Positions 15,046-44,836 are shown, numbered from the stretch's first letter. The stretch: DNA of 44,836 nucleotides from a virus (IMGVR_UViG_3300030329_004952:1-44836), one strand, 5' to 3'. Made by a program: numbers and translations. Notes: generated by a model from the letters alone, not told the origin.

Positions 15046-16842
15046 ATGGCAAGAAGAATCACACCAGTCAATTATTCCGCTCGCGACTTCGAGTCCATTA
15101 AAAGCGAACTGGTGCAATATGCAAAGAGGTATTATCCTGAAACTTTCCGTGATTTTAACCAAGCCTCGTTCGGTGCGCTTATGTTGGATATGGTGTCGTA
15201 TGTGGGGGATAGCCTATCTTTCTATCTAGATTATCAGGCAAACGAATCGTTTTTCGATACAGCTACAGAAAGAAACAATATTATTCGCCAAGCTAAGCAG
15301 ATGGGGTACCAATATAGAGGAGCTTCTACGGCTACGGGCATGTGTGATTTCTATGTGGTTGTACCTGCAACTTCTACGGGACTTGGACCTAACAGCGCTT
15401 ATTTACCAATTTTAAAACAAGGCACATCGGTAAGCTCAACAGGCGGCGGCGCCTTTATTTTGGCGGAAAACGTAAACTTTGGAGATACGACAAATCCCGT
15501 AACCGCTGCTCGTGTTAACCCTGATACGGGGGTTCCTACACATTATGCTGTAAAAGCGCGAGGAAAGGTTGTATCGGGAAGGATCGTTGTAGAGAATCAC
15601 AGAGTAGGCGGCTTTCAGAGATTCAGAAAAATTCAACTCAAGAGTCGAGCAGTAACGGAAGTCCTTTCGGTTTTTGACGATCAAGGGCACGAATATACAC
15701 AAGTAGACTACCTCTCTCAAGACGTGGTTTATAAAGAGATGGGAAATAGAGGTTCCACTGCCAACGATCAGGTCACCTCTGTTATGAAGCCGATTATTGT
15801 CCCGAGACGCTTCGTGGTTGAACAGACGGGAACTCGATCTTTTCTCCAGTTTGGATATGGCTCAGATTCCGAGATAACCAGTGATTCGGTGGCAGAGCCT
15901 TCTCAGATTGTTTTGAATCAAGTGGGTAGACCTTATATCGAGGATGTTAACTTTGACCCATCAAAGCTTTTGGATACCGATAAGTTTGGTGTTGCACCCG
16001 CGAACACTACGCTGACTATCACATATAGGACGAACGGTGGAGCAAATTCTAACGCAGCAGCACGAACCCTGAAGAGGATCCAGAATCCTATTGTGGAATG
16101 GAACGATAGAACAGCGGTTACTAGAAAGGTTGCTAGAGACGTGATTAACTCTATTGAGTGCAACAACGATGAGCCCATTGTTGGGAGCGTTGCAGACCCT
16201 TCAACAGCCGAGTTGAAGCGTCGGGCTATTGATCACTTTGCAACGCAAAACCGCGCAGTAACAGAGCGTGATTATGAAGCGATGGTGTACGCGATGCCCC
16301 CACAGTTTGGGGCGATAAAAAGGTGCAAAATTGTTCGTGACGATGACTCTTTTAAAAGAAATTTAAATTTGTATGTTCTTGCCGAGAATCGAAATGGCAC
16401 GTTAGCTGAAGCAACCATGCCTCTCAAGGAAAATCTTAAAACGTGGATCAACAACATGAAGATGGTACACGATACGGTTGATATTATCGATGGTAGATTT
16501 GTAAATTTTGGAATAAAATATTCTATTATTGCCGAGCCCAATGTAAACAAATATGAGCTTTTAGACACTTGTAGCAGGGCACTGTCGCAATATTATGCTG
16601 AGCCTTCGTATTTCGGCGAATCTTTATATATTACCGATGTTTATTCGGTCTTGAATAAGATCGACGGAGTGGTTGACACATATGATGTGGAGTTTGTGCA
16701 GAAAGAGGGAGGAGCTTATTCAACCACGACATATTCTTTCAAAAGCAACATGTCTGCCGATGGAAGACAGCTATTGGTTCCCGATAATGTCTGCATGGAA
16801 CTTAAGTTCCCCGGTACCGATATCGCGGGAGCAATTAAATAA
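15046..16842 (+). CDS. 6: gp6-like baseplate wedge protein (baseplate J family)
   Basis: This 598-residue protein resembles T4 gp6, the wedge protein that forms the baseplate inner ring, and the baseplate_J family. The N-terminus has the typical YSARDFESIKSELVQYAKRY block, followed by FNQASFGALMLDMVSYVGD and FYLDYQANESFFDTA (residues about 10-75). The region ATQNRAVTERDYEAMVYAMP near residue 400 is the conserved J-domain segment. T4 gp6 is 660 residues, so the size is close. An AGAGG site precedes the ATG. It forms the wedge with gp25; its other usual partner, gp53, is not obvious in this window. Confidence 0.9.
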   Translation: MARRITPVNYSARDFESIKSELVQYAKRYYPETFRDFNQASFGALMLDMVSYVGDSLSFYLDYQANESFFDTATERNNIIRQAKQMGYQYRGASTATGMCDFYVVVPATSTGLGPNSAYLPILKQGTSVSSTGGGAFILAENVNFGDTTNPVTAARVNPDTGVPTHYAVKARGKVVSGRIVVENHRVGGFQRFRKIQLKSRAVTEVLSVFDDQGHEYTQVDYLSQDVVYKEMGNRGSTANDQVTSVMKPIIVPRRFVVEQTGTRSFLQFGYGSDSEITSDSVAEPSQIVLNQVGRPYIEDVNFDPSKLLDTDKFGVAPANTTLTITYRTNGGANSNAAARTLKRIQNPIVEWNDRTAVTRKVARDVINSIECNNDEPIVGSVADPSTAELKRRAIDHFATQNRAVTERDYEAMVYAMPPQFGAIKRCKIVRDDDSFKRNLNLYVLAENRNGTLAEATMPLKENLKTWINNMKMVHDTVDIIDGRFVNFGIKYSIIAEPNVNKYELLDTCSRALSQYYAEPSYFGESLYITDVYSVLNKIDGVVDTYDVEFVQKEGGAYSTTTYSFKSNMSADGRQLLVPDNVCMELKFPGTDIAGAIK

Positions 16843-18809: not shown

Positions 18810-18820
18810 GATGATTAGGA

Positions 18821-21800
18821 ATGGGAACTAAAGATTTATTTGACAAGGGAACACCCTTTAAAATTCTAACAAGTACCGATGTCCAAAAAGCCACCGAAAA
18901 GGTGGAGTCTCCGAGAAACTTAAGGGCTAAAATTGAAGAAAAGGGTCGGTTTATACCCCAGATCGACTATAACAATCCTGCTGAATTTGTTCGTTTTGGT
19001 TCTGCTGAAAAATATTATGAAGACGCCTTTGACCGAATAACAGACAATTTTCCCTACGACGGGTCAGAGGCAGAGCAAGTTGAATTCTATAATAGCTCTT
19101 CTTATCTTGACCTTTATGTTTTTGACAAAGAATATCCAAGAACTACTGGTTACGCGACAATTCACAGTGAGGGATATACTGCTGCCGGAGTTCAGGATGG
19201 GTGGGTAAGGGTTCACCCTCTCGATCAAGAATACATCATCATTAAGGGAGGACCCCACACAGCTTCTGGCGGGATGCCGTCAGGCTCGCTAGGGACTCAG
19301 TTTACGGGAGCGAACTATTATAACACAGATATTTATACGACCGACAGGGAGTATCAGGGAACAAGGACAGGAACAAGACTTTCCAATCTTCGATATAGCT
19401 TGTCTGATGGCGTATCAGTTGAATTTTGGTTGAAGAAAGATGGATGGCAGACAACCAGTACCGACACCATCAATAAAACGGCTATTTTTGATCTGTGGAA
19501 TGGCGAGGTCACTGGAACTGCGGTTGGATCGAGCGTATATGACCACTCCCAGTATGGTCGTCTTTTAATTTATCTTTCGGCAAGTGGACCAGTTGGGACT
19601 GGAACCGGAGGACTGTATCCTTTTGGTGTCCATTTAGCATCCGGCTCCACTGTTTGGGATTTGCAGTTTGGTGCAAATATAACCACTTCATCGATGGACG
19701 GTGATTGGCACCATTTTGCCTTCACGTTCCAGTCTAGCTCTGACAACAGTTCTTTGGAGGCAAAATTCTTTCACAGTGGTGCCTACGTTGAAGCCTCTAG
19801 TTCGGGAGATATTGGAACCTTTGGCGAAGTCACGGGCTCGCTAGTCGCTCACTTAGGCTCTTTACAAACAACACCTTCTGGTAATGCTTTTGCCGCTTAT
19901 GCATATCCCGTGACCACATGGAAGGGTTATGGCGGTCTCAAAGCTTCGATGGATGAGTTCCGTTACTGGAAGACAACCCGAACTGCCGAGGACATTGGTT
20001 TAAATTATTTCCGACAAGTTCGCGGCGGAACAAATACAGATCCAGCAAATGCAGATTTGGGTGTTTATTATAAGTTTAACGAGGGCATCACCGGTACCAG
20101 TTCTACTGACTCTATTGTTTTGGACTATAGTGGTCGGATCTCCAACGGTACATGGTTTGGATATCCCGGCTCTGCTGCGAGAAACACGGGCTCAGCCATG
20201 GTGTCTGCTTCAGCTATTTTAGAGGAGTGGGAAGACCCCATTATTCGCCCAAACAACACTACCCTGAGCAACAAAAGAAGCAGCCTCATAGAATCCGGTA
20301 GTATTTTTGACGATACTCATAACGCTACTCTCTATAATCGTATTCCAAGCTGGATCATAGAGGAGGATCCGGGCACGCTCAAGGACATGATGCAAATCAT
20401 GGCGAGCTACATGGACACTCTTCATCTCCAACTCGAATCATTGCCTCACTTAAAAGATATGACATACGCGAGTAGTTCTGTGAAAGCGCTCCCAATGTCG
20501 AATCGCCTCGTAAACAATTGGGGGCTGGAAGCTCCAGAGATTTTTGCCGAGGCAGATATTCTGGCTCAAATCATGAGCCGCGATGAGGTGCGCAATTTTG
20601 ACCTTAACTTGGACGAGATTAAGAACAGAATTTATAAAAATATTTACAATAACCTAGTTTATATCTACAAATCCAAGGGGACGCTAAAGTCTTTTAGGAA
20701 TCTTATTCGTTGTTATGGTGTTGGGGATGATATTGTAAGGCTCAATCTTTACGCCAACAATGCAACGCACAAAATAAGGGATAATTACGAGCCCTCTGCG
20801 GTTCGAAAAAATTACGTTAACTTCAATCATCCAGATAGTTTTAACGGAGTTGTGACTCAGCAATCTCAAAGTTCAAACCCTAGTGCGAACAACGTATCTT
20901 ATGTGTCTGGCACAGTTAACGAATATCTGGCAACGACTGCCGAATTGGATGTTATTTTTCCGAAGAAAACAAGTGATGCGGGAAGTATTTCTTGGTTTGA
21001 TACCAACTTCCTTTCATCATCGATTTTTGGAACTCACCGCCTTCTCATAGATGGCGAGGTGAATGAGCCCGCCTTTGAGCAGGCTGCTGTTGTAGATGAT
21101 TATTCATGGAGTCTGTACGCTGTTAGACCAGAGGAAAACTCCAGTGACGCTTATCTGGTGTTTAAATCCAACCGAGGTGCAAAGCCAGATTTCTATCTTA
21201 CCTCGGCTATCTATCCTGATCTTTATGATAATGAGCGTTGGAACTTTGCTGTTCGCACTAAAAATGTAAAATATCCTGTATCTGACGGGGCTTCTGGATC
21301 GGATGCTGGAAATTCGACTGATTTTGATATCGATGACACTTATCTCAAGCTCGAACTTTATGGTGTCAATTATGATGCGGGCTTGTTGAAGAACGAACTT
21401 CTCCTCACCTCTTCGGCATTGACCGCTAGTGCCTATCTGACCGCCGACCGCCGATACTATGTCGGGGCAAGCAGGACTAATTGGACTGGATCTGTTAACG
21501 TTCGCAGTGATATTAACGCGGCTTCTTTGCGACACTGGGAGAGTTATCTTGCAGATGAAGCAGTTCAGGCTCATGGTCGAGACCCCAATAATTTTGGTTC
21601 TCTTCGCCCCTACCGCAGCACATATCTGATGCAGTCTGCCTTAACGGGTACATGGGTCCCTCAAATGGCGACCTTGGCTTTAAATTGGAATTTTAATGAC
21701 GTAACTGGCTCTGATTCATCTGGAGAGTTCATTGTTCAAGACGCGTCTTCGGGGTCTATGGATGACCTCGGACGTTATCACGACAATGAAAATAATCCTC

Positions 21801-24800
21801 AATATTGTAGAACTATTTCTTATCAGTATCCCGGCACTGCTTATGGGATGAGAACTTCTAGCACGGGGGCTGTTGATAGGGCTTATATCTACGGGTTACG
21901 GCAAAATGCTCCCGACAGTCTTATGAGTTCGGACATGGTAAACATTCTTAGTAGACAAGATGATATCGAGTTTACGAGAGAGACGAGACCAATAAATTAT
22001 TATTTCTCTTTCGAGAAAAGCATGTACGGAACCATCACACAAGAGATGATGAACTTCTTTGGTTCGGTTGTAGAATTTAACGATCTCATCGGAGATCCCA
22101 AGAATCGTTATCGACAAGATTATAAAGAGCTTGGCAAACTCAGAGAACTGTTCTTCGAGAAAATCGGAAACACTCCAGATCTCGATAAATATGTGGAATA
22201 TTACAAGTGGATTGATAATTCTCTCGGGGTGATGCTCCGGCAGCTTGTTCCAGCTACCGCTGATTTCTCAGATGGTATTCGAACAATGGTCGAGAGTCAC
22301 GCCCTTGAAAGAAACAAATACTGGAACAAGTTCCCAACCCTCGAAATGAAGGTTTCAGATCCAGAAGCTGCTGTTCATGGCATCACAGAGCTTAGGTATG
22401 ATTGGGAGCACGGTCATGCGCCTCCCGCACCAATACGCGCTGTGGCAACAGGAGGTACCGACATCTTGTTAATGCCCGGTGATCAGGCTAACAATGATCG
22501 TTTTAAGGTTAATATTCCGACACACTTGGGCGGTACCGGAGAAGACATCACAATTAGGTTTGTCACTGCCACCCCTTCGGACGGTACAGCAGGCGAAATT
22601 CAGATAAGTCTTGGGGGTGCTGAAACTACACGAAACAGGCTAGTAGCCGCCATCAACGGTGTCGATACATCTGTAGTTAAATATGGTGCTGGCTCTGGCG
22701 ACGTGACTAACGGTATTGCTGGAATTTCTGGGGCGAATGGCTCCACGGTTGCAAAGACAACTATAACCTCAACCCAGTCTAGTCCTTATGGCGGCACCTC
22801 CATCGTGTTCACCGATATCGAAGGTACCGCTGTCGCAGAAGGCGCGACCGGCGCTTCCCCGGCATATATGACTGTTCCGACAACAGCGCTTGAGAGCGAT
22901 AATTGTCTGTGGTGGCACGATAGAGCAGAAAGAACCACGGGTGTCCTCTCTTCTTCGGTGGCAAGTGTCAACACTGACAGGGACGCAATCCTTACGATTA
23001 CCGAGACTTACAGAACAGGCTCTCCCGGTCCAACACTCGCACAGTCCACAAAGGCTTTGCCAGCCCCAACCTACCAAGGCTCAACATATGCCCTTAGAAG
23101 GTTTGATGAAATTTATAACCTTGTCCCTGACGAGAGCCCACTCTATCACGGTGGACCAGACTATTCCCAACGTAAACGTTATGGTTTTGTGAAGCCCCAC
23201 CTTAATAGTGTTTCGGTCGCCACCGCGCACGCGGGCTTCGATTTGCAGGTAATAGGTCAATCCACTATAGCCGGTCGTTTAGATCCAGAAGATGGGAAAG
23301 ATTGCGATGACGCTCTTATCCCTCCCGAACTGAACAAAAAGAAAATTAAAAGCGGTTTTTATGCCGCACCCCCCAGCGTTGCCGCACCCCGACCACTCCG
23401 CACTAACCCTTATACGAGTCAGGGTTATAGTGATATCGTCACGCCTTTTAGCCTCTACAGTTCGTCTGTCAACACCGGATATATGGCTGCTGACATCGGC
23501 AACAGACCCGGCGCGACCGGCGGTAGAAAAACACTAGCCGATGTTGTGTCTGGAGGGATCACAAATTATCATCACGACATTATCGGCAATGATATGGATG
23601 TCCCAATGCAGGGACCCTTTACCGAGAAATATGTTGGCGGAAACCAGTGGCGACATCAAGACCTCGTTTACGACCCAGAGACAACAGGATCAGCCTATGA
23701 CGGAAACAGGGCAGAGGCATGGTATCTTATCGCTGCTGCCACTAATCATCTTTTCTTGGAAAATGTTCGTTCACGGCTGTACCACACCGTGCCACGGGTA
23801 TATCTCAGGTCTCCGCAAGCGATTTATACTCGCGAGGAAGCCGCCAAACGACCCGTCAACATCCGAAACATCCAGATGACAGCAAGTGCTGTAGGAGCTT
23901 ACAAGACAACTCTTCCATCTGATGCAGGCACAAATATCGGACCCACCCCAACAGAATTCATCTCTGGTACACTAAGGTCCAACATCGGAAACTTCGAGAA
24001 CTTCTACGATATTGTCCAAACATCAGGTCGAAGCATTAATAACGTAGCACTTACAAAACAGGATGGGTTTAGTAAGACAGCCATTGCTCCAGATACTAGT
24101 GCTGGCTCTTATGTTGAGACGCTTGTAAGCACAGAGAAGCCACAACGTGACAAGAACGAGCATGTATTCGTGGAAAGGTTCTCTGCTCCCGGCGGACCGG
24201 AGACAGCAGGCGATGCAAATGGAGGCTTCGGTCTTGATTTCGAGTCGGCTGTCTATTCTCCCTATAATGCAATGCCTTGGAGAAACACATCAGTAAGAAC
24301 CCCTCTCAATAGGACACTGCTCGTTAACCATTCGAACCAGTTTGGATTTTACAGCAACGAGCAAGAGATAAAAAACGGTGGTCGCGTCTCTGTTGCAAGT
24401 ACAGGCACTGACATCATAACAAACCCCGGTGATCAAGCTAATAATGATCGATTTACTGTAAACATTCCAACAGCACTCGGTGGCACGGGGGTAGATATTA
24501 CAATCAGAGTTGTTACTGCTACTCCTTCCGATGGAACCCCAAATGAAATTCAAGTAAGTCTTGGGGGTGCTGAAACTACACGAAACAGAATTGTGGCTGC
24601 TATCAACGGTGTCGATACATCTGTAGTTAAGTATGGTGCTGGCTCTGGTGATATAACTAACGGCGTTGCGGGGATTTCCGCCGCCAATGGGTCTACAACC
24701 GCAGATATAACTATAACTTCAACTACTGGTGGGCTTACCGGTGACACCATTACATTTACGGACGTTGAAGGAACCATGATCTCTGGAGCCGGTACGGGCG

Positions 24801-27800
24801 CCTCACCAGCCACCATGGTGGTGCCATCAGGCGTCAACGGCGACTCAACTGTCACAGCCGAGAATTATTCTGGAACGGGCAGTTACCAGAAAGCTAATCG
24901 TAATACCCTAAAGACGCCCAGACTTTCTGCCACTTCTTTGGATTACGGAACAGACGAGGGAGATATGGTCGTAAGCACGGCAAGTGTTTATGACAATGGC
25001 TGGGTTACACATGAAATTCCAAGAATGGAGACAAGCTATGCTTGGATTGCAACTTCTTATACAGGCTCTCTGGCTTTTGGTCATGGTCATCCCGATGGCT
25101 TGCTGTCTACTTCTGCTGGCTATGTTGCCTCTATTGACTTTGTAAGTTCGTCGGATTTTGTTAGTTATATCCACCCCGCCATACGGACATACGGAGCAGA
25201 CCATATAAATGTGGGCGTCGGCGCTCTCAGTCCCGTTTTCCAGACGACTCACCTAAACACAAACATCGTTGAGCCCATGACTGCCTCCCAAGCTATTTTG
25301 GGGCACCAGATTAAAACGTCTTCCATCGGGACCACCACCCCTCTTACGACTTATATTAACATTGGAGATATAGACACTACTGTGCCACCCGCTGGACTTC
25401 TTATATCAACCAACGATACGTTCATCGAAAATGTCGGCGCCGCCACCACCGCCGGTAATACAACCTTTGCAAGTGCTTTCATGGATCTCATCATTCACCG
25501 CCAAGGATATTACGGTCATCCCTCTTGGAAACAAATAAGGGGTGCAGAACACCAACTCACAAGGTATTATCGCAACAATAATCAGATTACGATTAATCCC
25601 GATGATGGTGCTTCGTTTGAGGTTGCCACTAAAGGCGGGGGAACCATAACAATTGTTCCTCGCTTCGGAGAGCTTCAGATATTTGATGAACCTCCAGTGA
25701 ACCAAAGCTCAAAACCTTTAAAGTTCGTACTTGGAATTGAAACCCAGACGGGAATCAACCCTGATGGAACTCCAGCGATGGGGGTCAAGAATCTTGAGAT
25801 TAACTCTTCTTACGGGAATGATTTGATGAGGTTCTCCAATCTTGGTCTGGAGGAACTTACCACACTAAGTTCGAATACAATCTATACTTCGTATGACACC
25901 ATTAAAAACACCTATTTGAATGGGGCATTGGCGAGCCCAACGACTCCTGTGAAAAGTTTTGTTTCACTGACCTATAAGCAACAGGTATATCCGGCTGGCT
26001 ATAATGCGGGGCTAGAAAAGGTTCGAGAAAGGCAAAATTTTAAAATTAAATTTTGGGCTAATAGCCGAGCCGACCGAACCCTTCTTGGGAATGAAAAGAG
26101 TAGCAGCATGGGGTTCCCCCGTAAACTAGCGGGCACCACTAACTGGGGACAGCAGACCCGACTCTCTCAGAGTGCATGGGTTATGGACGCTTCACAGACT
26201 TTTGTAGACGGTCCTATTTGTTCGGCTTCAAACGCGACCTCAAGCGCTTCGGGCGAGCTTCAAAACGATTATGTCATGGTTCATTCGGGAGGCGTAGGGG
26301 CTCCTAGTTATAGAGGCGTTGCCTTTGTTAAAGCGGGGGCTCTATACTCTCGGAAACACATGCTTCCGTCTACAGCTTCGACGGTCCCTGTCACACTGGA
26401 CAATCCCCAGACTGGCGGTCTAGGAAGTAACTTAACCATGACAAAGGGTGCCGTTAAACTTTTTGCTGGAAACGCCCTATGGGAAGCCGATAGACTTGCT
26501 GGAAGAATAAAGAAGAAGTTTATAAACATGAAGAGTCCATGGGGGAAAACTGTTGCCCCCGAAATTGCTCAGGTCTTTGAGTCGGCTGTCAGGCAACCAA
26601 TTGACCCTGATTACGAAAGTAATATGAAAGATGCAATACTTCAGAATCAAACGTTCAGTGTTATTCCCGAGTTTAGAATAAGCGATCATATAAAATTTTA
26701 TGTGGAATCTGGAGTAAATTTCTTGCGAGAAAATAATAATTTTCTTGACATATATGGAGCCTCTGGGTCGTTACCCTCATCTAGTGGCGAGGATAACTTT
26801 TATAAAATTTACACCAACTCAGATTTCATGAAGAATTTCGAGACCATTCATGATGATCATGCTGGCTTTAAGAGTCCCTCTAAGATTACGCTTAAGTGTA
26901 AGGCGATTAAAAAGTTCTTACCTTATGATGGGTTTTATCCGGCACAACGATCTTTAGATATGGCATCACAATTTTCACAATCTTATGGGCAATACGTTTC
27001 TTACCCGGATGTTGATAGCATTAAGGCTACATCGATCAAGGACTACGCCGAACAAGCACGACTTCGCCCTCTGATGGCGCCTCTGTTTGCTCCCGGCGTG
27101 ATGTATAACACCATTAAATCGGGAATGGCTGTGGATTATGGAACATACAGTGGTTCTTACGAGGTGATATGTAACACGGGTTCGGCTGGAGGAGGTGGCG
27201 AGGGCACAGGCGGCGGTGGAGAAATGTACTTGGTAGGTGCTCCAACAGCCCTCGACGGCTCAAAGCGCCGCTCTGAAGACGCTGGTGTTTACGCTTATGG
27301 TTTTGATAATCGAGTTCCGTTTGAGGCTTTGGTAGAGCCCGAGAACCACATAGCCAACATGACCTTTGTGGATATGGAGCCTCACCCAAGTGCTTCTATG
27401 AATTTAAGCGCGTCATGGGATGGTACAGGAGATCCCTTCTACAAATTGATGGCAAACAATTTCTTTGCTGAATGTATCCACATGTTTATGCCCAATGGAC
27501 AAATGACTTCTTTTGTGTCTGCTAAGGAGGATGAATTCTTGCCCTTTGAGCCCGGTAAAGTTTATGGCATGAGGATTAAACTGCGGAAGAGCTATAATCG
27601 CCAAAGAACATACGAGCAAACAGCGCAGAAATTAAATTACCCCATTCCCCAGATTACCCCAAATGAAGCTGGTTTGATGGAGGGGACGAATGCCCCCGAT
27701 GAACGACTACTTGAGACGTTCACGATGTACAGCCGCCCCTCTGCTTTTGGTCCCCCGATGGCTGGCAGAATATTCGGACCCGCCAACCAGATCGAACAGG

Positions 27801-29314
27801 ACATGGGAATGATTAAGGGCGGACCTATTGATGGGTACAATCCTGCTTATACTCCTCCCTACTACTGTGGAGAGGCGTGGTTTGATATTTATTTTAAAGC
27901 AACCGATGTATCTCATGACATCGCTGAAATCCTTGGAGACTCTCATTTTTCTCCCTATAGGTTCGATTACCAGTGGTGGACCAGAGCAGCGGGTGGAGGC
28001 GCCGCGGCGACACGCTCGGATCCGGCTATTCCATATGACTATCAGCAGATTACGAATTATATTATGCAGCTAACGGCTTCGATTAACATTGATGGGGTTG
28101 CAAATGTAAACTCTGTAGAGTATTCGCCAGATGGGACCCCAGTGTTGGTATCTGACAGCCCTGTCGGGACCGAGAATGTGTGGGTCATCGAGCCCAAGTT
28201 TGAAACCCCAATGTTTAACTTCACTCCGACATCGGGTGCTTTGCGACCCATAACGGAAGCTGACGGAAACTTGACTATTCCGGCTAATGGAGCAGCTACC
28301 GTTCCTCGGGGAATGTGGCACCAATTTGGACTACCTCCTTCATCGGATGAAGAGGGGATCTTTTTGGAAGTGACAGATATCGACCCCCAATGGGCTAAGA
28401 ATAGAGCAGCCCGCGTGAATTCCTCGACGAGTGAAGGACAACTGTGGTACAGTTCAGAATTGAACAGTCAAGGTAAAACCTATTTAAGCTTAAAAAATCA
28501 AATAGGAATGAGTCAAACCAGCAAGCGCATGGGCGAAGTTCGAGAATCTCTTGAGGTGAGAGAGGCTATCGTTGCGGTCCCCTTTACCGTTGGTGGTGAT
28601 GGAAGCAGACAGTTTTTTGCAATACCTTCTGACTCTATTGATGCCTATCATCAGATGACAGATTTTCCAGCAATGGCGGGCGCTCTAGAAACTTCAGGCA
28701 ACCCAGAGTTGGATATAGGCGATTCTATCAAGAAACAGATCGAAGCTATGAAGAGGTATGTCATACCACCACAATTTAACTTTAACGATCTTGATGTGGA
28801 TCCGGTAGTAATGTATATTTTTGAATTTAGTCATATTTTTGATAAAGATGACTTGTCTTATATTTGGCAAAACTTACCACCAAAGGCGGCAGAAAAAATA
28901 GAAATGGTAGAGGCTGAAATAAGCCACCCTCTTTTGGTTAATGAGCTTATGGGTGCGAGGGGAGCCGCCACGGGAGCCGCACTTCAAGCGGAGCTTCAAT
29001 GGATGGTGTTCAAGGTCAAGCAGAAGGCGCATACGGAATATAAGGACAGGTTGGCAAAGAACACCGGATTGGTGGGCGACACAGATATCTCCACGTTTGT
29101 TCTTGGTGGAAAAAAAGCCACTCTGTCTCCGTCAAATATGAAATATTCCTATAACTGGCCGTATGACTATTTCTCTCTCTTGGAGTTTGGAAGCATTGAG
29201 TCAGAAGTAGAGTTTGGGAGTACGCCAGAAGTTCCCAACATCAGCTATTTGCCAGAGCCAACGGATGAAGAGCTTGAGGATGAGGACACCACTGATATTG
29301 GGTTTGGGGATTGA
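18821..29314 (+). CDS. Giant 3497-residue virion protein with LamG/lectin-like domains
   Basis: This 10.5-kb gene is the largest in the window. A LamG/concanavalin-type jelly-roll domain spans about residues 190-390, with SDGVSVEFWLKKDG, DGDWHHFAFTFQSSS and MDEFRYWKTTR as its typical first, middle and last strands. A second, weaker one lies at about 760-900 (DNERWNFAVRT, then YYVGASRTNWTG). Between them is a helical region with YKSKGTLKSFRNLIRCYG. Two copies of an inserted module lie at about 1209-1356 and 1858-2005. A Gly-rich GGGGEGTGGGGE linker is near 2790. The acidic end is about 15 residues. The lectin-like domains suggest glycan binding, so a fibre, adhesin or baseplate-periphery role is likely. 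No catalytic site was recognised. TTAGGA precedes the ATG. Confidence 0.75.
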   Translation: MGTKDLFDKGTPFKILTSTDVQKATEKVESPRNLRAKIEEKGRFIPQIDYNNPAEFVRFGSAEKYYEDAFDRITDNFPYDGSEAEQVEFYNSSSYLDLYVFDKEYPRTTGYATIHSEGYTAAGVQDGWVRVHPLDQEYIIIKGGPHTASGGMPSGSLGTQFTGANYYNTDIYTTDREYQGTRTGTRLSNLRYSLSDGVSVEFWLKKDGWQTTSTDTINKTAIFDLWNGEVTGTAVGSSVYDHSQYGRLLIYLSASGPVGTGTGGLYPFGVHLASGSTVWDLQFGANITTSSMDGDWHHFAFTFQSSSDNSSLEAKFFHSGAYVEASSSGDIGTFGEVTGSLVAHLGSLQTTPSGNAFAAYAYPVTTWKGYGGLKASMDEFRYWKTTRTAEDIGLNYFRQVRGGTNTDPANADLGVYYKFNEGITGTSSTDSIVLDYSGRISNGTWFGYPGSAARNTGSAMVSASAILEEWEDPIIRPNNTTLSNKRSSLIESGSIFDDTHNATLYNRIPSWIIEEDPGTLKDMMQIMASYMDTLHLQLESLPHLKDMTYASSSVKALPMSNRLVNNWGLEAPEIFAEADILAQIMSRDEVRNFDLNLDEIKNRIYKNIYNNLVYIYKSKGTLKSFRNLIRCYGVGDDIVRLNLYANNATHKIRDNYEPSAVRKNYVNFNHPDSFNGVVTQQSQSSNPSANNVSYVSGTVNEYLATTAELDVIFPKKTSDAGSISWFDTNFLSSSIFGTHRLLIDGEVNEPAFEQAAVVDDYSWSLYAVRPEENSSDAYLVFKSNRGAKPDFYLTSAIYPDLYDNERWNFAVRTKNVKYPVSDGASGSDAGNSTDFDIDDTYLKLELYGVNYDAGLLKNELLLTSSALTASAYLTADRRYYVGASRTNWTGSVNVRSDINAASLRHWESYLADEAVQAHGRDPNNFGSLRPYRSTYLMQSALTGTWVPQMATLALNWNFNDVTGSDSSGEFIVQDASSGSMDDLGRYHDNENNPQYCRTISYQYPGTAYGMRTSSTGAVDRAYIYGLRQNAPDSLMSSDMVNILSRQDDIEFTRETRPINYYFSFEKSMYGTITQEMMNFFGSVVEFNDLIGDPKNRYRQDYKELGKLRELFFEKIGNTPDLDKYVEYYKWIDNSLGVMLRQLVPATADFSDGIRTMVESHALERNKYWNKFPTLEMKVSDPEAAVHGITELRYDWEHGHAPPAPIRAVATGGTDILLMPGDQANNDRFKVNIPTHLGGTGEDITIRFVTATPSDGTAGEIQISLGGAETTRNRLVAAINGVDTSVVKYGAGSGDVTNGIAGISGANGSTVAKTTITSTQSSPYGGTSIVFTDIEGTAVAEGATGASPAYMTVPTTALESDNCLWWHDRAERTTGVLSSSVASVNTDRDAILTITETYRTGSPGPTLAQSTKALPAPTYQGSTYALRRFDEIYNLVPDESPLYHGGPDYSQRKRYGFVKPHLNSVSVATAHAGFDLQVIGQSTIAGRLDPEDGKDCDDALIPPELNKKKIKSGFYAAPPSVAAPRPLRTNPYTSQGYSDIVTPFSLYSSSVNTGYMAADIGNRPGATGGRKTLADVVSGGITNYHHDIIGNDMDVPMQGPFTEKYVGGNQWRHQDLVYDPETTGSAYDGNRAEAWYLIAAATNHLFLENVRSRLYHTVPRVYLRSPQAIYTREEAAKRPVNIRNIQMTASAVGAYKTTLPSDAGTNIGPTPTEFISGTLRSNIGNFENFYDIVQTSGRSINNVALTKQDGFSKTAIAPDTSAGSYVETLVSTEKPQRDKNEHVFVERFSAPGGPETAGDANGGFGLDFESAVYSPYNAMPWRNTSVRTPLNRTLLVNHSNQFGFYSNEQEIKNGGRVSVASTGTDIITNPGDQANNDRFTVNIPTALGGTGVDITIRVVTATPSDGTPNEIQVSLGGAETTRNRIVAAINGVDTSVVKYGAGSGDITNGVAGISAANGSTTADITITSTTGGLTGDTITFTDVEGTMISGAGTGASPATMVVPSGVNGDSTVTAENYSGTGSYQKANRNTLKTPRLSATSLDYGTDEGDMVVSTASVYDNGWVTHEIPRMETSYAWIATSYTGSLAFGHGHPDGLLSTSAGYVASIDFVSSSDFVSYIHPAIRTYGADHINVGVGALSPVFQTTHLNTNIVEPMTASQAILGHQIKTSSIGTTTPLTTYINIGDIDTTVPPAGLLISTNDTFIENVGAATTAGNTTFASAFMDLIIHRQGYYGHPSWKQIRGAEHQLTRYYRNNNQITINPDDGASFEVATKGGGTITIVPRFGELQIFDEPPVNQSSKPLKFVLGIETQTGINPDGTPAMGVKNLEINSSYGNDLMRFSNLGLEELTTLSSNTIYTSYDTIKNTYLNGALASPTTPVKSFVSLTYKQQVYPAGYNAGLEKVRERQNFKIKFWANSRADRTLLGNEKSSSMGFPRKLAGTTNWGQQTRLSQSAWVMDASQTFVDGPICSASNATSSASGELQNDYVMVHSGGVGAPSYRGVAFVKAGALYSRKHMLPSTASTVPVTLDNPQTGGLGSNLTMTKGAVKLFAGNALWEADRLAGRIKKKFINMKSPWGKTVAPEIAQVFESAVRQPIDPDYESNMKDAILQNQTFSVIPEFRISDHIKFYVESGVNFLRENNNFLDIYGASGSLPSSSGEDNFYKIYTNSDFMKNFETIHDDHAGFKSPSKITLKCKAIKKFLPYDGFYPAQRSLDMASQFSQSYGQYVSYPDVDSIKATSIKDYAEQARLRPLMAPLFAPGVMYNTIKSGMAVDYGTYSGSYEVICNTGSAGGGGEGTGGGGEMYLVGAPTALDGSKRRSEDAGVYAYGFDNRVPFEALVEPENHIANMTFVDMEPHPSASMNLSASWDGTGDPFYKLMANNFFAECIHMFMPNGQMTSFVSAKEDEFLPFEPGKVYGMRIKLRKSYNRQRTYEQTAQKLNYPIPQITPNEAGLMEGTNAPDERLLETFTMYSRPSAFGPPMAGRIFGPANQIEQDMGMIKGGPIDGYNPAYTPPYYCGEAWFDIYFKATDVSHDIAEILGDSHFSPYRFDYQWWTRAAGGGAAATRSDPAIPYDYQQITNYIMQLTASINIDGVANVNSVEYSPDGTPVLVSDSPVGTENVWVIEPKFETPMFNFTPTSGALRPITEADGNLTIPANGAATVPRGMWHQFGLPPSSDEEGIFLEVTDIDPQWAKNRAARVNSSTSEGQLWYSSELNSQGKTYLSLKNQIGMSQTSKRMGEVRESLEVREAIVAVPFTVGGDGSRQFFAIPSDSIDAYHQMTDFPAMAGALETSGNPELDIGDSIKKQIEAMKRYVIPPQFNFNDLDVDPVVMYIFEFSHIFDKDDLSYIWQNLPPKAAEKIEMVEAEISHPLLVNELMGARGAATGAALQAELQWMVFKVKQKAHTEYKDRLAKNTGLVGDTDISTFVLGGKKATLSPSNMKYSYNWPYDYFSLLEFGSIESEVEFGSTPEVPNISYLPEPTDEELEDEDTTDIGFGD
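22450..22890 (+). repeat. Duplicated module, copy 1 (in the giant virion protein)
   Basis: About 147 residues beginning TDILLMPGDQANNDRFKVNI are repeated near 24400. The copies share long exact DNA runs, including 34 bases at 22605-22638 that match 24555-24588, and a 29-base run around the ATCAACGGTGTCGATAC segment. Copy 1 falls between EHGHAPPAP and DNCLWWHDRAER, which read as one continuous domain if the module is removed. Confidence 0.8.
24400..24845 (+). repeat. Duplicated module, copy 2 (in the giant virion protein)
   Basis: This copy begins TDIITNPGDQANNDRFTVNI and follows the same order as copy 1: GVDITIRVVTATPSDGT, SLGGAETTRN, VAAINGVDTSVVKYGAGSGD, then a Thr-rich strand pair and a TGASPA end. 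Silent sites agree in the shared runs, which points to a recent duplication or gene conversion rather than old divergence. Confidence 0.8.
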
Positions 29315-40694: not shown

Positions 40695-41585
40695 ATGTCA
40701 CAATATAGTTCATTCAAAGACTACCAGCTACTGATGGAAGGGTGGAGAGCCTATGCCCAAGAAGAAAGCAATACTATTTTTCTTTTTGAAGGCGGTAAAC
40801 CTCAGCCCAGAGATTTTGAACTTATCTTGGAGCGTCGTGCTCTGAAAGAAGCTATTCAGATGTGGGAAGCTTCTTCTCTCTATGAATGCGATAAGCTTCT
40901 GTTGGAAGTAAACTCCGCAGCCTTTGTCAAAGAATTCTTTTCTGATATTGGAAAGAAGGTGAACGATTTTATTCTGAAGCTGTCGGTTCAAGCATTTAAT
41001 TTGTTGCAAAGAGGGTCGGAGTCTGTTAAAATGGTTTTGTCGGTGATAAAAAAGCTTGTAAACGCAATTGAGGGGCATTGTACGAAGTTGCCAACAACCT
41101 GTAAGATCGCTAGGACATCTGCCATGATCTTGAGTATTTTCGCACTTGGGACTCTTTTTTATTCTCCAAGGGCATATGCTGCTATCCAATACGGCGATGC
41201 ACCTTTGTCAGATGAAGAGTATAGCTATATTCGAGGCGTCATTATGGACGGCTTTGTTTCTGGTTCATACGAGGGGCTTTCGCCTGAAAGCCAAAGGAAT
41301 ATTGCCGAAACAATCGAGCAGCTTGACAAGTTGCAGGCATCCCCTGATGTAACGGGATACGAAAATCTAAGCGGAACACTTCAGGCGGCTTTAGATTCAA
41401 GCTACGGTATTATGGACTATTACGAGAGAGAGCTTTCCCTCGGTAGAATGACGCCAGAGAAGTTTCACGCAATTAAAGAATATTTTGAAAAGATGGGGCA
41501 AGCAGCTAAAATTTCTTACGATACGATAGTCCCGAACACAGATATTGCGGTTGCTGGAGACATTCCTGAGAAACCTTCTTGGTAG
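40695..41585 (+). CDS. CTS-like tagged protein with internal signal-peptide-like segment, copy 1
   Basis: This 296-residue protein opens with SSFKDYQLLMEGWRAY (residues 5-20), which resembles the T4 capsid-targeting sequence (K-x-Y-Q, ending in I/L-x-E). LME is a possible cleavage site for a gp21-like prohead protease. A helical region follows to about residue 136. Then comes a basic KIAR, a hydrophobic span at about 142-156, and SPRAYA ending at A162, which together look like an n-region, h-region and signal peptidase site, though internal. The last 134 residues are acidic and helical. No enzyme motif is seen. It is a tandem paralogue of the next gene in design. It may be an internal head protein released into the cell with the DNA (inference). 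Confidence 0.65.
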   Translation: MSQYSSFKDYQLLMEGWRAYAQEESNTIFLFEGGKPQPRDFELILERRALKEAIQMWEASSLYECDKLLLEVNSAAFVKEFFSDIGKKVNDFILKLSVQAFNLLQRGSESVKMVLSVIKKLVNAIEGHCTKLPTTCKIARTSAMILSIFALGTLFYSPRAYAAIQYGDAPLSDEEYSYIRGVIMDGFVSGSYEGLSPESQRNIAETIEQLDKLQASPDVTGYENLSGTLQAALDSSYGIMDYYERELSLGRMTPEKFHAIKEYFEKMGQAAKISYDTIVPNTDIAVAGDIPEKPSW

Positions 41586-41598
41586 GGAGAAATTTAAA

Positions 41599-42678
41599 AT
41601 GAACGACATGAAGCTCATAATGGAAGGCTGGAGGCAGTATTCAAACATCCGCAATGAAGAATTGGTTATCGAATCTATCGACAAGTTTGAGAAGCAGATT
41701 CTTAAAGAGCTTTCAAGAGTCGAAAGGCTTGATGAAGGAAAGATCGAAGATTTTGCCAAAGGGACAATAGACAAGGCGCTTAACTATGTTAAGGGTTTAA
41801 CTTCTAAGGCAAATAGCTTGACCACTGCGGTTTATGTTAGGGCTATGAACATGCTTGATAGGGTGATTAAGAGAGTCAAGTCTCTTGCAAAACGATACCC
41901 GGCGCTAAAGCCAGTTATTATAACTCTTGTTTCTGTGGGGCTCTTGTTGGTTTCAACTGCTGCTCAAGCTTCCGAAGTGGAAGTGGATTTGTCAATTATA
42001 CCATCGTGGCTCGAAGGGCTCGATCTATCAGAGGTGGGTCAAAGCGCAGACTATATAGAGTCATATCTTGAAACAGCCAAAGAGATAGCCGGAGAAGATG
42101 GCATCATCAGCGCAGATGACTGGGAGAATGCCACATCAGCGCAACGAAGCACTATTGAGTCTGGAGCATCGGAGTTTTCTGAAATTATCGATCAGTTCAA
42201 AGAAGCAGATGTCTCTGGCGCCGACGCCGAAATCTCTGGACCAGTAGAGATGGAAGGAAAGGTTTACAGTGCTGAGATGGTGGAAATATTCAAAGATATT
42301 AGAAAATCATCCGAGATGAGAGGCAGGGCATTTGACGACTACCAAAATGTGTACAATCGCATGACCAGCCAAAAAGGTCCTGAAGCTGGCTGGTGGAAGG
42401 AGACTATGACAGATTTAATGCCCCCGCCCGAATCGATAGGGCGCACTACAGATGTTGCCAGAGATGCAGTACAAGCGCTAGAAAAAAGTGAATATGGCGA
42501 CATGGATCGAACCAAGCTCGTTGTTAAATTATTAAATAATATGGCTGACACACAAGATGCTTGGCAAGGGGTTGTGGACAACGCTAGGGACAATAGCATC
42601 GAATTTAACCAGTGGATGGACTCTCTCCTCGCCGCCGGAGACTACATGGGCGCCGAGCGCATCATCGATAAGTTTTAG
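41599..42678 (+). CDS. CTS-like tagged protein with internal signal-peptide-like segment, copy 2
   Basis: I place the start at ATG 41599, with AGGGAGA about 10 bases upstream; an ATG at 41545 would lie inside the previous gene. The 359-residue protein opens MNDMKLIMEGWRQYSNI, sharing the IMEGWRxY core with the gene before it. Residues 20-104 are helical and basic. K104-P105 then leads into a hydrophobic span (about 106-121) ending AAQA at 121-124, followed by SEVEVD, a textbook Sec signal peptide end placed about 120 residues into the protein. The C-terminal 235 residues are acidic and helical. No known motif is seen. The likely role is like that of its neighbour: an internal or injected virion protein, or one that sits in the host membrane. 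Confidence 0.65.
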   Translation: MNDMKLIMEGWRQYSNIRNEELVIESIDKFEKQILKELSRVERLDEGKIEDFAKGTIDKALNYVKGLTSKANSLTTAVYVRAMNMLDRVIKRVKSLAKRYPALKPVIITLVSVGLLLVSTAAQASEVEVDLSIIPSWLEGLDLSEVGQSADYIESYLETAKEIAGEDGIISADDWENATSAQRSTIESGASEFSEIIDQFKEADVSGADAEISGPVEMEGKVYSAEMVEIFKDIRKSSEMRGRAFDDYQNVYNRMTSQKGPEAGWWKETMTDLMPPPESIGRTTDVARDAVQALEKSEYGDMDRTKLVVKLLNNMADTQDAWQGVVDNARDNSIEFNQWMDSLLAAGDYMGAERIIDKF

Positions 42679-42682
42679 AGAC

Positions 42683-42711
42683 TTGACAAAGCAACGTAGA
42701 CCAGTTATAAT
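42683..42711 (+). promoter_or_regulatory. Perfect sigma-70 promoter, predicted to give a leaderless mRNA
   Basis: TTGACA at 42683-42688 and TATAAT at 42706-42711 are 17 bases apart. The ATG of the resolvase gene starts at 42717, only five bases after the -10 box, where transcription would normally begin. No ribosome site precedes it. The promoter lies four bases after the stop of the virion gene, so it marks the change from late to early/middle genes. Confidence 0.8.
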
Positions 42712-42716
42712 AAAAT

Positions 42717-43250
42717 ATGATTCTTGGCTTAGACATCTCAACCAGCATTACAGGCTGGACCATTACAAAGTATCAAGGCGACGTTGTTGAATACGGAGCG
42801 TGGGATACCAGAAAATACAAAGACTTCTTTGATAAAGCGGAGGCAGTGAGAAAAGGTGTTACAGAAATACACGCGCAATATGCTGGAAGAATTGAACACG
42901 TTTATATTGAACAATCGTTACAGACGTTCCGATCAGGTTTCTCATCTGCTAAAACTTTATCAAGCCTGTCTCGTTTTAATGGGATTGTGTCATGGCTTGT
43001 TTATGATCTATTTCAGATTAAGCCAGAATACATCGCAGCGACAAGTGCTCGAAAGCTCTGCGGCATTAAAATCCCTAGAGGAGAAAAAGCCAAACCAGTT
43101 GTCTTAAAATTTGTACTTGACAACCAACCGGGTTTCGTGATAGATTATACTCGTCATGGAAATCCAAAGCCAGAATCCTATGATATGGCTGATTCAATTG
43201 TAATCGCAAAAGCGGGGGCTATATGCGAAGCGAGAAAATTAGGATACTGA
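42717..43250 (+). CDS. RuvC-fold Holliday-junction resolvase-like nuclease
   Basis: This 177-residue protein has the RNase H fold of RuvC-type resolvases, which cut four-way DNA junctions with two metal ions. The four acidic residues are present: D6 in GLDISTSITGW, E65 in VYIEQS, and D156 and D159 in YDMADSIVIAKAG. The length is normal for RuvC. In a T4-like phage it would resolve branched replication DNA before packaging, a job done in T4 by the unrelated endonuclease VII. D6 lies so close to the N-terminus that a later start would destroy the active site. This fixes ATG 42717 and makes the leaderless mRNA likely. It overlaps the primase gene by 28 bases, so both are expressed together. Confidence 0.85.
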   Translation: MILGLDISTSITGWTITKYQGDVVEYGAWDTRKYKDFFDKAEAVRKGVTEIHAQYAGRIEHVYIEQSLQTFRSGFSSAKTLSSLSRFNGIVSWLVYDLFQIKPEYIAATSARKLCGIKIPRGEKAKPVVLKFVLDNQPGFVIDYTRHGNPKPESYDMADSIVIAKAGAICEARKLGY

Positions 43251-44155
43251 GAAGCGCACTGGGGTCGTCTTATGACCGTGGAAGCGAGCTTCTCTTTACT
43301 TGTCCTTATTGCCGTCACCACAAACGCAAGTTTTCGGTGAACATCGAGAAGAACTATTATAAGTGCTGGGTCTGCGACAAGCGCGGCAGAAATGTCGGTC
43401 GTGTGATTCGCCGCTTTGGTTCGTTGACGCACTTCCGCGAATGGCAGGATCTTGTTGGCAAGGTTGATCTTAGTGACTTCGATAACCTGTTTGGGACTGA
43501 GGTCGAGGAAGAAACAGAAACAATTTTAAAATTGCCTGATGAGTTTGTGTCCCTCGCCAATAAAGATTTGCCAAGGTCGGCAAGACCGTTTCTTCGCTAT
43601 CTCTCACAGAGAGGCATCGGAAAGAAAGAGATCGTGAAGTGGAAGATTGGATATTGTCCAGAGGGCGAATACCGGAACCGAGTGATTATCCCATCTTTCA
43701 ACAAGGACGGATTTGTAAATTATTATGTGGCTCGCTCAATCGCTGACGATTGGCAAAAATACAAGAACCCTCCCGCCAGCAAGGACATTGTTTTTAACGA
43801 GCTTTATATCGACTGGCATGAAGACGTTATTATTGTGGAGGGCATCTTCGATGCCATCAAAGCAGGCAACGGAATCCCCATCCTTGGATCAACTTTGAGA
43901 GACGGAGGGAAACTCTTCAAAGCTATCGTGAGTAGTGGGGCTAAAGTATTCTTGGCTCTGGACGCGGACGCAAACGACAAAGCAGACCGGATAATTCAGA
44001 GCCTGATGTCTTATGGTGTCGAGGTATCCAAGATTGACACGTCAGGATATGAAGACATAGCCGAGATGCCAGCCTCTAAATATGAAGAACGAAAAAAGAA
44101 TGCTGTCTTTATGTCTAACGACAACTATTTACTGGAAAGACTATCGTCTATTTAG
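43223..44155 (+). CDS. DnaG-type DNA primase (T4 gp61-like role)
   Basis: This 310-residue protein has a zinc-binding domain with C27-P-Y-C30 and C48-W-V-C51, followed by a linker and a TOPRIM domain. TOPRIM signatures are VEGIFDAIK with E206 and LALDADAND with D247 and D249, which bind the catalytic metals. DnaG-type primases make RNA primers for the lagging strand. The size is close to that of T4 gp61 and shorter than bacterial DnaG, because the C-terminal helicase-binding domain is absent or very short. The region GIGKKEIVKWKIGYCPEG is the usual RNA-polymerase-core segment. It overlaps the resolvase gene and shares its promoter. Confidence 0.9.
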   Translation: MRSEKIRILRSALGSSYDRGSELLFTCPYCRHHKRKFSVNIEKNYYKCWVCDKRGRNVGRVIRRFGSLTHFREWQDLVGKVDLSDFDNLFGTEVEEETETILKLPDEFVSLANKDLPRSARPFLRYLSQRGIGKKEIVKWKIGYCPEGEYRNRVIIPSFNKDGFVNYYVARSIADDWQKYKNPPASKDIVFNELYIDWHEDVIIVEGIFDAIKAGNGIPILGSTLRDGGKLFKAIVSSGAKVFLALDADANDKADRIIQSLMSYGVEVSKIDTSGYEDIAEMPASKYEERKKNAVFMSNDNYLLERLSSI

Positions 44156-44182
44156 ATTGCTATGGCAGGAGATAAAACAGAT

Positions 44183-44836
44183 ATGAGTTTTTCAAGCTTT
44201 AAGAAAGATCAGATGATCTTTGAGAATTTTCGTAAATTTGTGAACGAAGAAGGGGAAGAAGAACGAGATAAAGGTTTCTTTCCGGCTTTAAGTTGGGGTA
44301 CCAAGTATGTAGCATTTGTCGCAGCCCTTGGTCAAAATGCGAAAGACCCAAAAGTCAGGGCATTCATATCAGCGGGAATCCAAGACAAGGATGGCAACCC
44401 CAATGATGACAAGTTTGATTTTCAAGAGAATGTGGCAATCCCGGTCGCCAAACTTCAGCCTACGCAGAACGAAGTGGACATTGATAAATCGTTGTCTTTC
44501 CCTCTCATAAAGACCGGTGGCAAAGGATTTGTCAAAAACAATACAGCATCTGGTCCAATTACAGTTGGCTCTCCCATTGTTACCTTCAATGGAGAATATG
44601 TGATCGATGGTCACCATAGGTGGTCTCAGTTATATGCGTGCAACAAAAACGCAGAGATTGTAGCACTCAATATAACATTGGAGGGCATCGAAGCATTGGA
44701 TGCACTCAAGGCAGTTCAGGCGGCAATCGCTTTGCAGACAGGAGCCGTCCCCACTAACAAGGTCGAAGGTAGCAACCTGTTTACAATGAGTGGAAAGGAT
44801 ATCGCGGCTTGGATAAAGTCCAAGGTCCCAGCCGAC
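44183..44836 (+). CDS. ParB-like nuclease-domain protein with CTS-like tag, 3'-truncated
   Basis: The frame runs off the right end, so only the first 218 residues are seen. The N-terminus reads MSFSSFKKDQMIFENF, then RKFVNEE. It matches the tag of the protein at 40695 (SFKxxQ, then hydrophobic-x-E, an aromatic-Arg pair, and EE). The region VAIPVAKLQPTQ and the motif YVIDGHHRWSQLYA are signatures of the ParB/Srx-type nuclease fold, in which GHHRW is the nucleotide-binding element. I chose ATG 44183 because AGGAG lies 11 bases before it; ATG 44162 is in frame but lacks a ribosome site. Known activities of such phage proteins vary (CTP-binding, nuclease, partition). Which of these applies is unknown. 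Confidence 0.72.
   Translation, partial: MSFSSFKKDQMIFENFRKFVNEEGEEERDKGFFPALSWGTKYVAFVAALGQNAKDPKVRAFISAGIQDKDGNPNDDKFDFQENVAIPVAKLQPTQNEVDIDKSLSFPLIKTGGKGFVKNNTASGPITVGSPIVTFNGEYVIDGHHRWSQLYACNKNAEIVALNITLEGIEALDALKAVQAAIALQTGAVPTNKVEGSNLFTMSGKDIAAWIKSKVPAD

Follow-up and report, generated by a model that had tools for sequence, protein, structure and literature searches.

What is the role of a short peptide shared by three otherwise dissimilar proteins in an uncultured virus? The stretch that raises this question, IMGVR_UViG_3300030329_004952, is an entire IMG/VR record, a linear fragment of 44,836 bases that we analyzed at full length (hereafter the window). The original prediction proposed that these proteins share an N-terminal tag like the capsid-targeting sequence (CTS) of phage T4, cut by a gp21-type prohead protease. 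The core of that proposal gains strong support from the modularity of the tag, its [LI]-x-E site, its residue spacing, the gp21 and gp23 genes of tagged contigs, the swapping of tags on one cargo and a related scaffold tag, whereas the proposed K-x-Y-Q match and cleavage solely at the proposed site are not supported. We put the probability that these tags are exchangeable capsid-targeting propeptides at roughly 0.84. Sequence analysis shows a real and widespread tag that is terminal and modular, with a T4 CTS-like build, in phages with a predicted T4-type protease and capsid.

All three proteins lie on the plus strand. Two are open reading frames (ORFs) with orphan cargos: protein 1 (40695..41585; 296 amino acids [aa]), which begins MSQYSSFKDYQLLMEGWRAY, and protein 2 (41599..42678; 359 aa), which begins MNDMKLIMEGWRQY. 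Protein 3 (44183..44836), a ParB/Srx-like protein with a DGHHRW motif, begins MSFSSFKKDQMIFENFRKF and is cut off by the window end. Their tag-bearing starts are MSQYSSFKDYQLLMEGWRAYAQEE, MNDMKLIMEGWRQYSNIRNEE and MSFSSFKKDQMIFENFRKFVNEE, within which the tags span residues 5-23 of protein 1 (SSFKDYQLLMEGWRAYAQE; 40707..40763, +), residues 4-14 of protein 2 (MKLIMEGWRQY; 41608..41640, +) and residues 4-22 of protein 3 (SSFKKDQMIFENFRKFVNE; 44192..44248, +). We took one tag from each cargo family, using other viruses only, to build a 12-residue profile; against it, these tags scored 23.1, 28.4 and 19.4 bits, respectively. No other of the 14,545 window positions exceeded 5.6 bits, and shuffling the window proteome 20 times gave at most 7.4 bits, so the three tags are not chance resemblances, and they alone stand out among the window proteins. 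The shared N-terminal pattern is thus as originally described. For protein 2, the tag was read correctly but its Met had been taken as the start; the actual ATG, at 41599 with GGGAG upstream, lies three residues earlier. Proteins 1 and 3 belong to a longer subtype, SSFKxxQ...[WF]Rx[YF][LVA][NQ]E, also found in loci L052 and L103/L121, and because the Tyr is not conserved across this subtype, K-x-Y-Q is not the common feature.

Compared with the cargos of the wider tag family, the three window cargos are mutually unrelated; protein 3 alone matches others, its ParB-like relatives, and proteins 1 and 2 match none of the tagged set. Protein 1 yielded no Pfam family above the cut-off, no PHROG and no homologue among the viral sequences collected, and single-sequence queries found no relatives of proteins 1 and 3.

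A wealth of other viral sequences carry the same peptide, which we call tag A. We searched with a degenerate DNA pattern (M-K-three hydrophobics-E-[N/S/G etc.]-W-R-x-[YF]; ~3 chance matches per 100 gigabases [Gb]), which the tag of protein 2 fits exactly. In IMG/VR, a control pattern of 16 bases matched 53 times where 52 matches would be expected per 100 Gb, so the collection is close to 100 Gb; tag A occurred there in at least 120 stretches, versus ~3 by chance. In 257 Gb of prokaryote genomes, by contrast, the pattern had 20 matches, only two of which resemble tagged starts; most of the others fall toward the C-terminal end of a bacterial protein. From 80 loci we assembled 103 tagged proteins of at least 40 residues, and once the tag was removed they clustered into 65 cargo families, the hallmark of a short terminal peptide common to unrelated proteins. 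Scanning the viral loci with the profile returned 167 N-terminal sites, one true C-terminal site and no genuine internal site, the two apparent internal ones being a locus edge and an unlikely frame; a second C-terminal copy occurs in G003, one of the contig relatives of the window. Synonymous codons vary across the tags, with all six Arg codons used at position 9, so conservation acts at the protein level. In the relatives G002 and G003, the tag sits on runs of adjacent genes, and among tagged loci generally such genes are often neighbors (up to five per locus), with tags within one contig 69-91% identical as DNA; tags may therefore spread by local duplication.

Cargo matches include nucleases, NUDIX and nucleotidase enzymes, peptidases, endolysins and ParB-like proteins. 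By eye, three tagged or tag-like proteins of G003 (21492-21938, 171360-171704 and 18101-19054) resemble a NUDIX hydrolase, an ADP-ribosyltransferase and a nucleotidyltransferase; T4 also packs an ADP-ribosyltransferase, Alt. The two C-terminally tagged proteins are an 816-aa protein of G003 (162578-165028) ending LFEGWRKFLNT and a 611-aa protein (L083:5740-7578), by eye lysozyme-like plus GDSL-like, ending in LFENWRGFLKED.

The likeness to T4 lies in spacing rather than in letters. Cleavage by the T4 gp21 protease follows L/I-X-E; in IPIII, mutagenesis assigned residues 4 and 7 to targeting and residues 8 and 10 to processing (PMC9026906). In MKTYQEFIAE, the start of IPII and IPIII in the T4 record, these are Y4, F7, I8 and E10; their tag A equivalents are W8, Y/F11, L/I12 and E14, so that here too two putative targeting residues stand three apart, directly before the cleavage residues. 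Residues 12-14 formed no part of the tag A search pattern, yet [LI]xE falls within residues 11-20 of 87 of the 103 tagged proteins, against ~13% of the remaining stretches of these proteins (p ~1e-48), and tags with shifted spacing mostly retain the site. IPI begins MKTFKEFTSTTTPVSTITEA, which indicates that in T4 as well the [LI]-x-E may sit further from the residue pair. The T4-matching register appears to be the aromatic pair W/F..Y/F followed by [LIV]-x-E. The original prediction was right that each window protein contains I/L-x-E (LME15, IME9 and IFE14, respectively), but it placed cleavage only before GWR/NFR, and the site conserved across the family, where tag meets cargo, lies eight residues downstream; its alignment with T4 was probably off by those eight residues. 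Candidate cuts in the window are LME15, AQE23 and LFE32 in protein 1, IME9, LKE37 and LDE46 in protein 2, and IFE14 and VNE22 in protein 3.

A second widespread N-terminal peptide, tag B (MKITKxQLKxIIKEEL), presents L8, I11, I12 and E14, all of which were fixed in its search pattern. Many small proteins bear it (G003 95789-96608, 84644-85201 and 169237-170051, within L019-L027; loci L170-L248), one of them in the head module near the protease; the I-x-E of tag B stands at the same position as that of tag A. More generally, the string hydrophobic-xx-hydrophobic-[LI]-x-E in residues 3-19 marks 6.9-8.6% of ORF starts in G003, G002 and the isolate Flavobacterium phage immuto, against 1.6% of ORF starts in random viral contigs and ~1.2% inside proteins. 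Immuto (MW353176) bears tags B, C and D, its tagged genes lying at 1803, 25470, 102250, 102836, 103762, 111631 and 113144. Microcystis phage Mel-JY01 was considered as a further carrier and set aside, its enrichment not being significant (p 0.25).

The ParB-like cargo of protein 3 offers a direct view of exchange. It has 41 viral homologues, and DGHHRWS is invariant across the 20 sequences aligned. The ParBc_2 family was detected in 7 of these 20 (best E 4.3e-4 among the relatives); protein 3 itself falls below the cut-off (E 0.073). An AF2 model built with the 20-sequence alignment reached a pLDDT of 74.7, versus 34 for protein 3 alone, and its nearest structure is a ParB-N domain (5k5d; probability 0.92, E 0.03), a modest match. 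The non-redundant long members carry at least five different tags (MLKLKSLLTE, MKLSELRTIIKEE, MKQELITEAARLQKLAGLLKE, MKQNIAILKLIIE and MVRLEEYILE, among others), whereas short Aeromonas-65-type homologues lack such an N-terminal extension. Homologues in L052 (KLIMENWRRYLNE) and L074 (KLIMENWRRFINE) have canonical tag A in register with QMIFENFRKFVNE of protein 3. An [LI]xE lies in the first 25 residues of 21 of 22 ParB-like members, compared with 20 of 229 interior stretches. Without selection for a terminal propeptide, such swapping is difficult to account for. One family member (L346:2926-4497) seemingly forms a fusion with another tagged cargo, whose own tag, MIKLIDLLKEDEAPK, is kept within the chain.

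Because the window has no head genes, we examined the protease and capsid in its relatives. Among 21 long tagged contigs, gp23 was present in 10, a gp21-like protease (S77) in 8 and an HK97-type capsid in none; in the two gp23 contigs without S77, gp23 lies at the extreme contig end. Tagged contigs whose head region is uncut, the relatives included, thus combine a gp23-like capsid with the S77 protease, a gene that the original prediction suggested looking for. The maturation site of T4 gp23, FLTE/A, aligns with LLKE/A, LLRE/A, IVSE/A and LISE/A of the relatives, so a separate substrate points to the same [LIV]-x-E specificity. Directly upstream of gp23, a gp22-like scaffold ends in [RK][MLFW]xxLAG[IL] (tag C) in 12 of 12 phages examined, and two more contigs (L368 and L371) have the same scaffold C-terminus. 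In the T4-like and tagged sets this motif stands at a protein end in 35 of 40 cases; two immuto proteins begin with it (MKKQILSEQFKRMQ.LAGIITE), and ParB-like cargos have it at one end or the other. At least tag C therefore copies a terminus of the scaffold.

Could such a peptide serve some end other than packaging? It might dock proteins terminally to a target outside the head, such as the tail or baseplate, the inner membrane, host RNA polymerase or a chaperone, with [LI]-x-E arising as a by-product of a helical motif. The tagged window genes do come after tail genes, not after a head module, the tag occurs at C-termini too, and the N-terminus of T4 gp23 guides that protein to GroEL, according to a title cited in PMC10052503. 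Against this, the Glu of [LI]xE is kept despite spacing shifts, and the site is about six times commoner there than elsewhere; moreover, the sister tag C is a head scaffold terminus, and the different tags found on one cargo have only the T4 grammar in common. We consider docking outside the head unlikely.

Ordinary paralogy, in which the shared stretch is an N-terminal domain inherited from a common ancestor and plays no part in targeting, would accommodate the side-by-side genes and the DNA identity of their tags, but it is very improbable given that 65 families remain after tag removal, that the window cargos show no match among themselves or to the others (ParB-like relatives of protein 3 excepted), and that the match does not recur inside proteins. 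Nor do we give more than the slightest credence to a conserved stretch that acts on the DNA or mRNA, for instance in translation initiation or regulation: the tag does nearly always begin with, or close to, the start codon, but the variable synonymous codons and the C-terminal copies speak against a nucleic acid signal.

Capsid targeting accommodates these observations in a simple scheme. As the prohead assembles, the tag's pair of hydrophobic or aromatic residues would dock the protein onto the scaffold or core; a gp21-like prohead protease would then cut after the Glu of the downstream [LI]-x-E. The freed cargo would stay in the head, be packed together with the DNA and probably be delivered into the next cell. 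We regard the predicted packaging and trimming as strongly supported; the docking partner, the cleavage event, presence in the virion, ejection with the DNA and the roles of the cargos are all things that we infer. Several results weigh against capsid targeting. Strict [LI]-x-E is missing from the family's main site in the window proteins, where the border between tag and cargo reads A-Q-E in protein 1 and V-N-E in protein 3 and has no site in protein 2; LME, IME and IFE lie within the tags. The two C-terminal copies misfit a cleaved N-terminal propeptide, although T4 Alt is likewise cut at its C-terminus (PMC9026906). The protease link is statistically weak: the control gave 1 of 50 contigs, the only one above 100 kb, and it is a weak control of prevalence because large T4-like contigs commonly carry the protease. 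The likeness of tag A itself to the scaffold C-terminus is not significant by rank; the sole bridge is one hybrid, LLENWQKLAGIIKG in L103, and we mention the resemblance only as a suggestion. Searches by tblastn with 20-residue queries, which are of limited sensitivity, found no tag A in isolated phages, and the literature searched held no virion proteomics of a tagged phage, immuto included.

The T4 CTS (on IPI, IPII and IPIII; cut by gp21) is the closest known system. In both cases a short N-terminal peptide is common to unrelated proteins with diverse cargos, two spaced aromatic or hydrophobic residues precede [LI]-x-E, and the phages have gp21-, gp22- and gp23-like genes. Beyond the spacing there is no alignable identity: the tag here takes 14 residues rather than 10 and has a longer core, ENWRx[YF], and several tag types per phage, C-terminal tags and far more cargo families set it apart. 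Encapsulin cargo-loading peptides and the C-terminal coat-binding peptides of scaffolds likewise bring cargo into a protein shell by a short terminal peptide; the analogy extends to tag C, which is the scaffold's own C-terminus, but tags A and B are seemingly cut off. The phiKZ and SPN3US head propeptides are comparable, being N-terminal, borne by inner-head proteins and cut after Glu, as we predict for ours, and differ in their A/S-x-E motif and in the length of most of them (>100 residues); gp53 and gp54 there have identical 15-residue N-termini (PMC5694885). The T4 CTS is known, and its use for diverse cargos in T4-like phages has already been proposed (PMC9026906); we found no paper with the tag A letters in the literature searched. 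What is new is the tag families, their number, their swapping on one cargo, the use of both termini and the common scaffold peptide.

Knowledge of which proteins a phage injects usually comes from proteomics alone, done on a handful of cultured phages, and a tag that marks such proteins would yield lists of probable injected proteins straight from metagenomes. The T4 packaging code would then be a general grammar with exchangeable words instead of one conserved sequence, and the tags offer new peptides by which proteins might be directed into phage heads. A broader picture, which we advance tentatively and at somewhat less than even odds, is that uncultured T4-like viruses use a few interchangeable address peptides, at either protein end, that copy the docking peptides of their own prohead scaffold, so that any tagged cargo would enter the head, be released by the protease and be injected. 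The tags would thus mark a large and rapidly changing repertoire of injected enzymes, in some of which a secretion-like segment may come into play once trimming has occurred.

Hydrophobic, secretion-like segments lie ~100-140 residues into proteins 1 and 2 (window 41115-41183, ending AYA-A, and 41899-41976, ending AQA-S). Similar internal segments, which often end in AxA, occur in tagged proteins of L056, L069, L088 and L107, one with a twin-arginine-like SRRSFLKK; across the tagged proteins as a whole, hydrophobic segments are not enriched.

The rest of the window represents the baseplate and tail region of a T4-like myovirus, with a gp25/gp6-like baseplate pair, very large tail proteins, a RuvC-like resolvase and a primase. 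The gp6-like baseplate wedge (15046..16842, +) was our marker for placing the phage and finding relatives: the nearest isolates are Mel-JY01 and immuto (~30% identity), and the contig relatives include G002 (99.8 kb; 72%) and G003 (172 kb; 55%). Against isolates, megablast with window 1-25000 and tblastn with proteins 2 and 3 returned weak ParB-like matches only. The tail protein at 18821-29314 (3497 aa) contains two near-identical domain copies (DILLMPGDQANNDRFKVNIPTHLGG... and DIITNPGDQANNDRFTVNIPTALGG...); the G002 homologue is shorter by ~400 residues.

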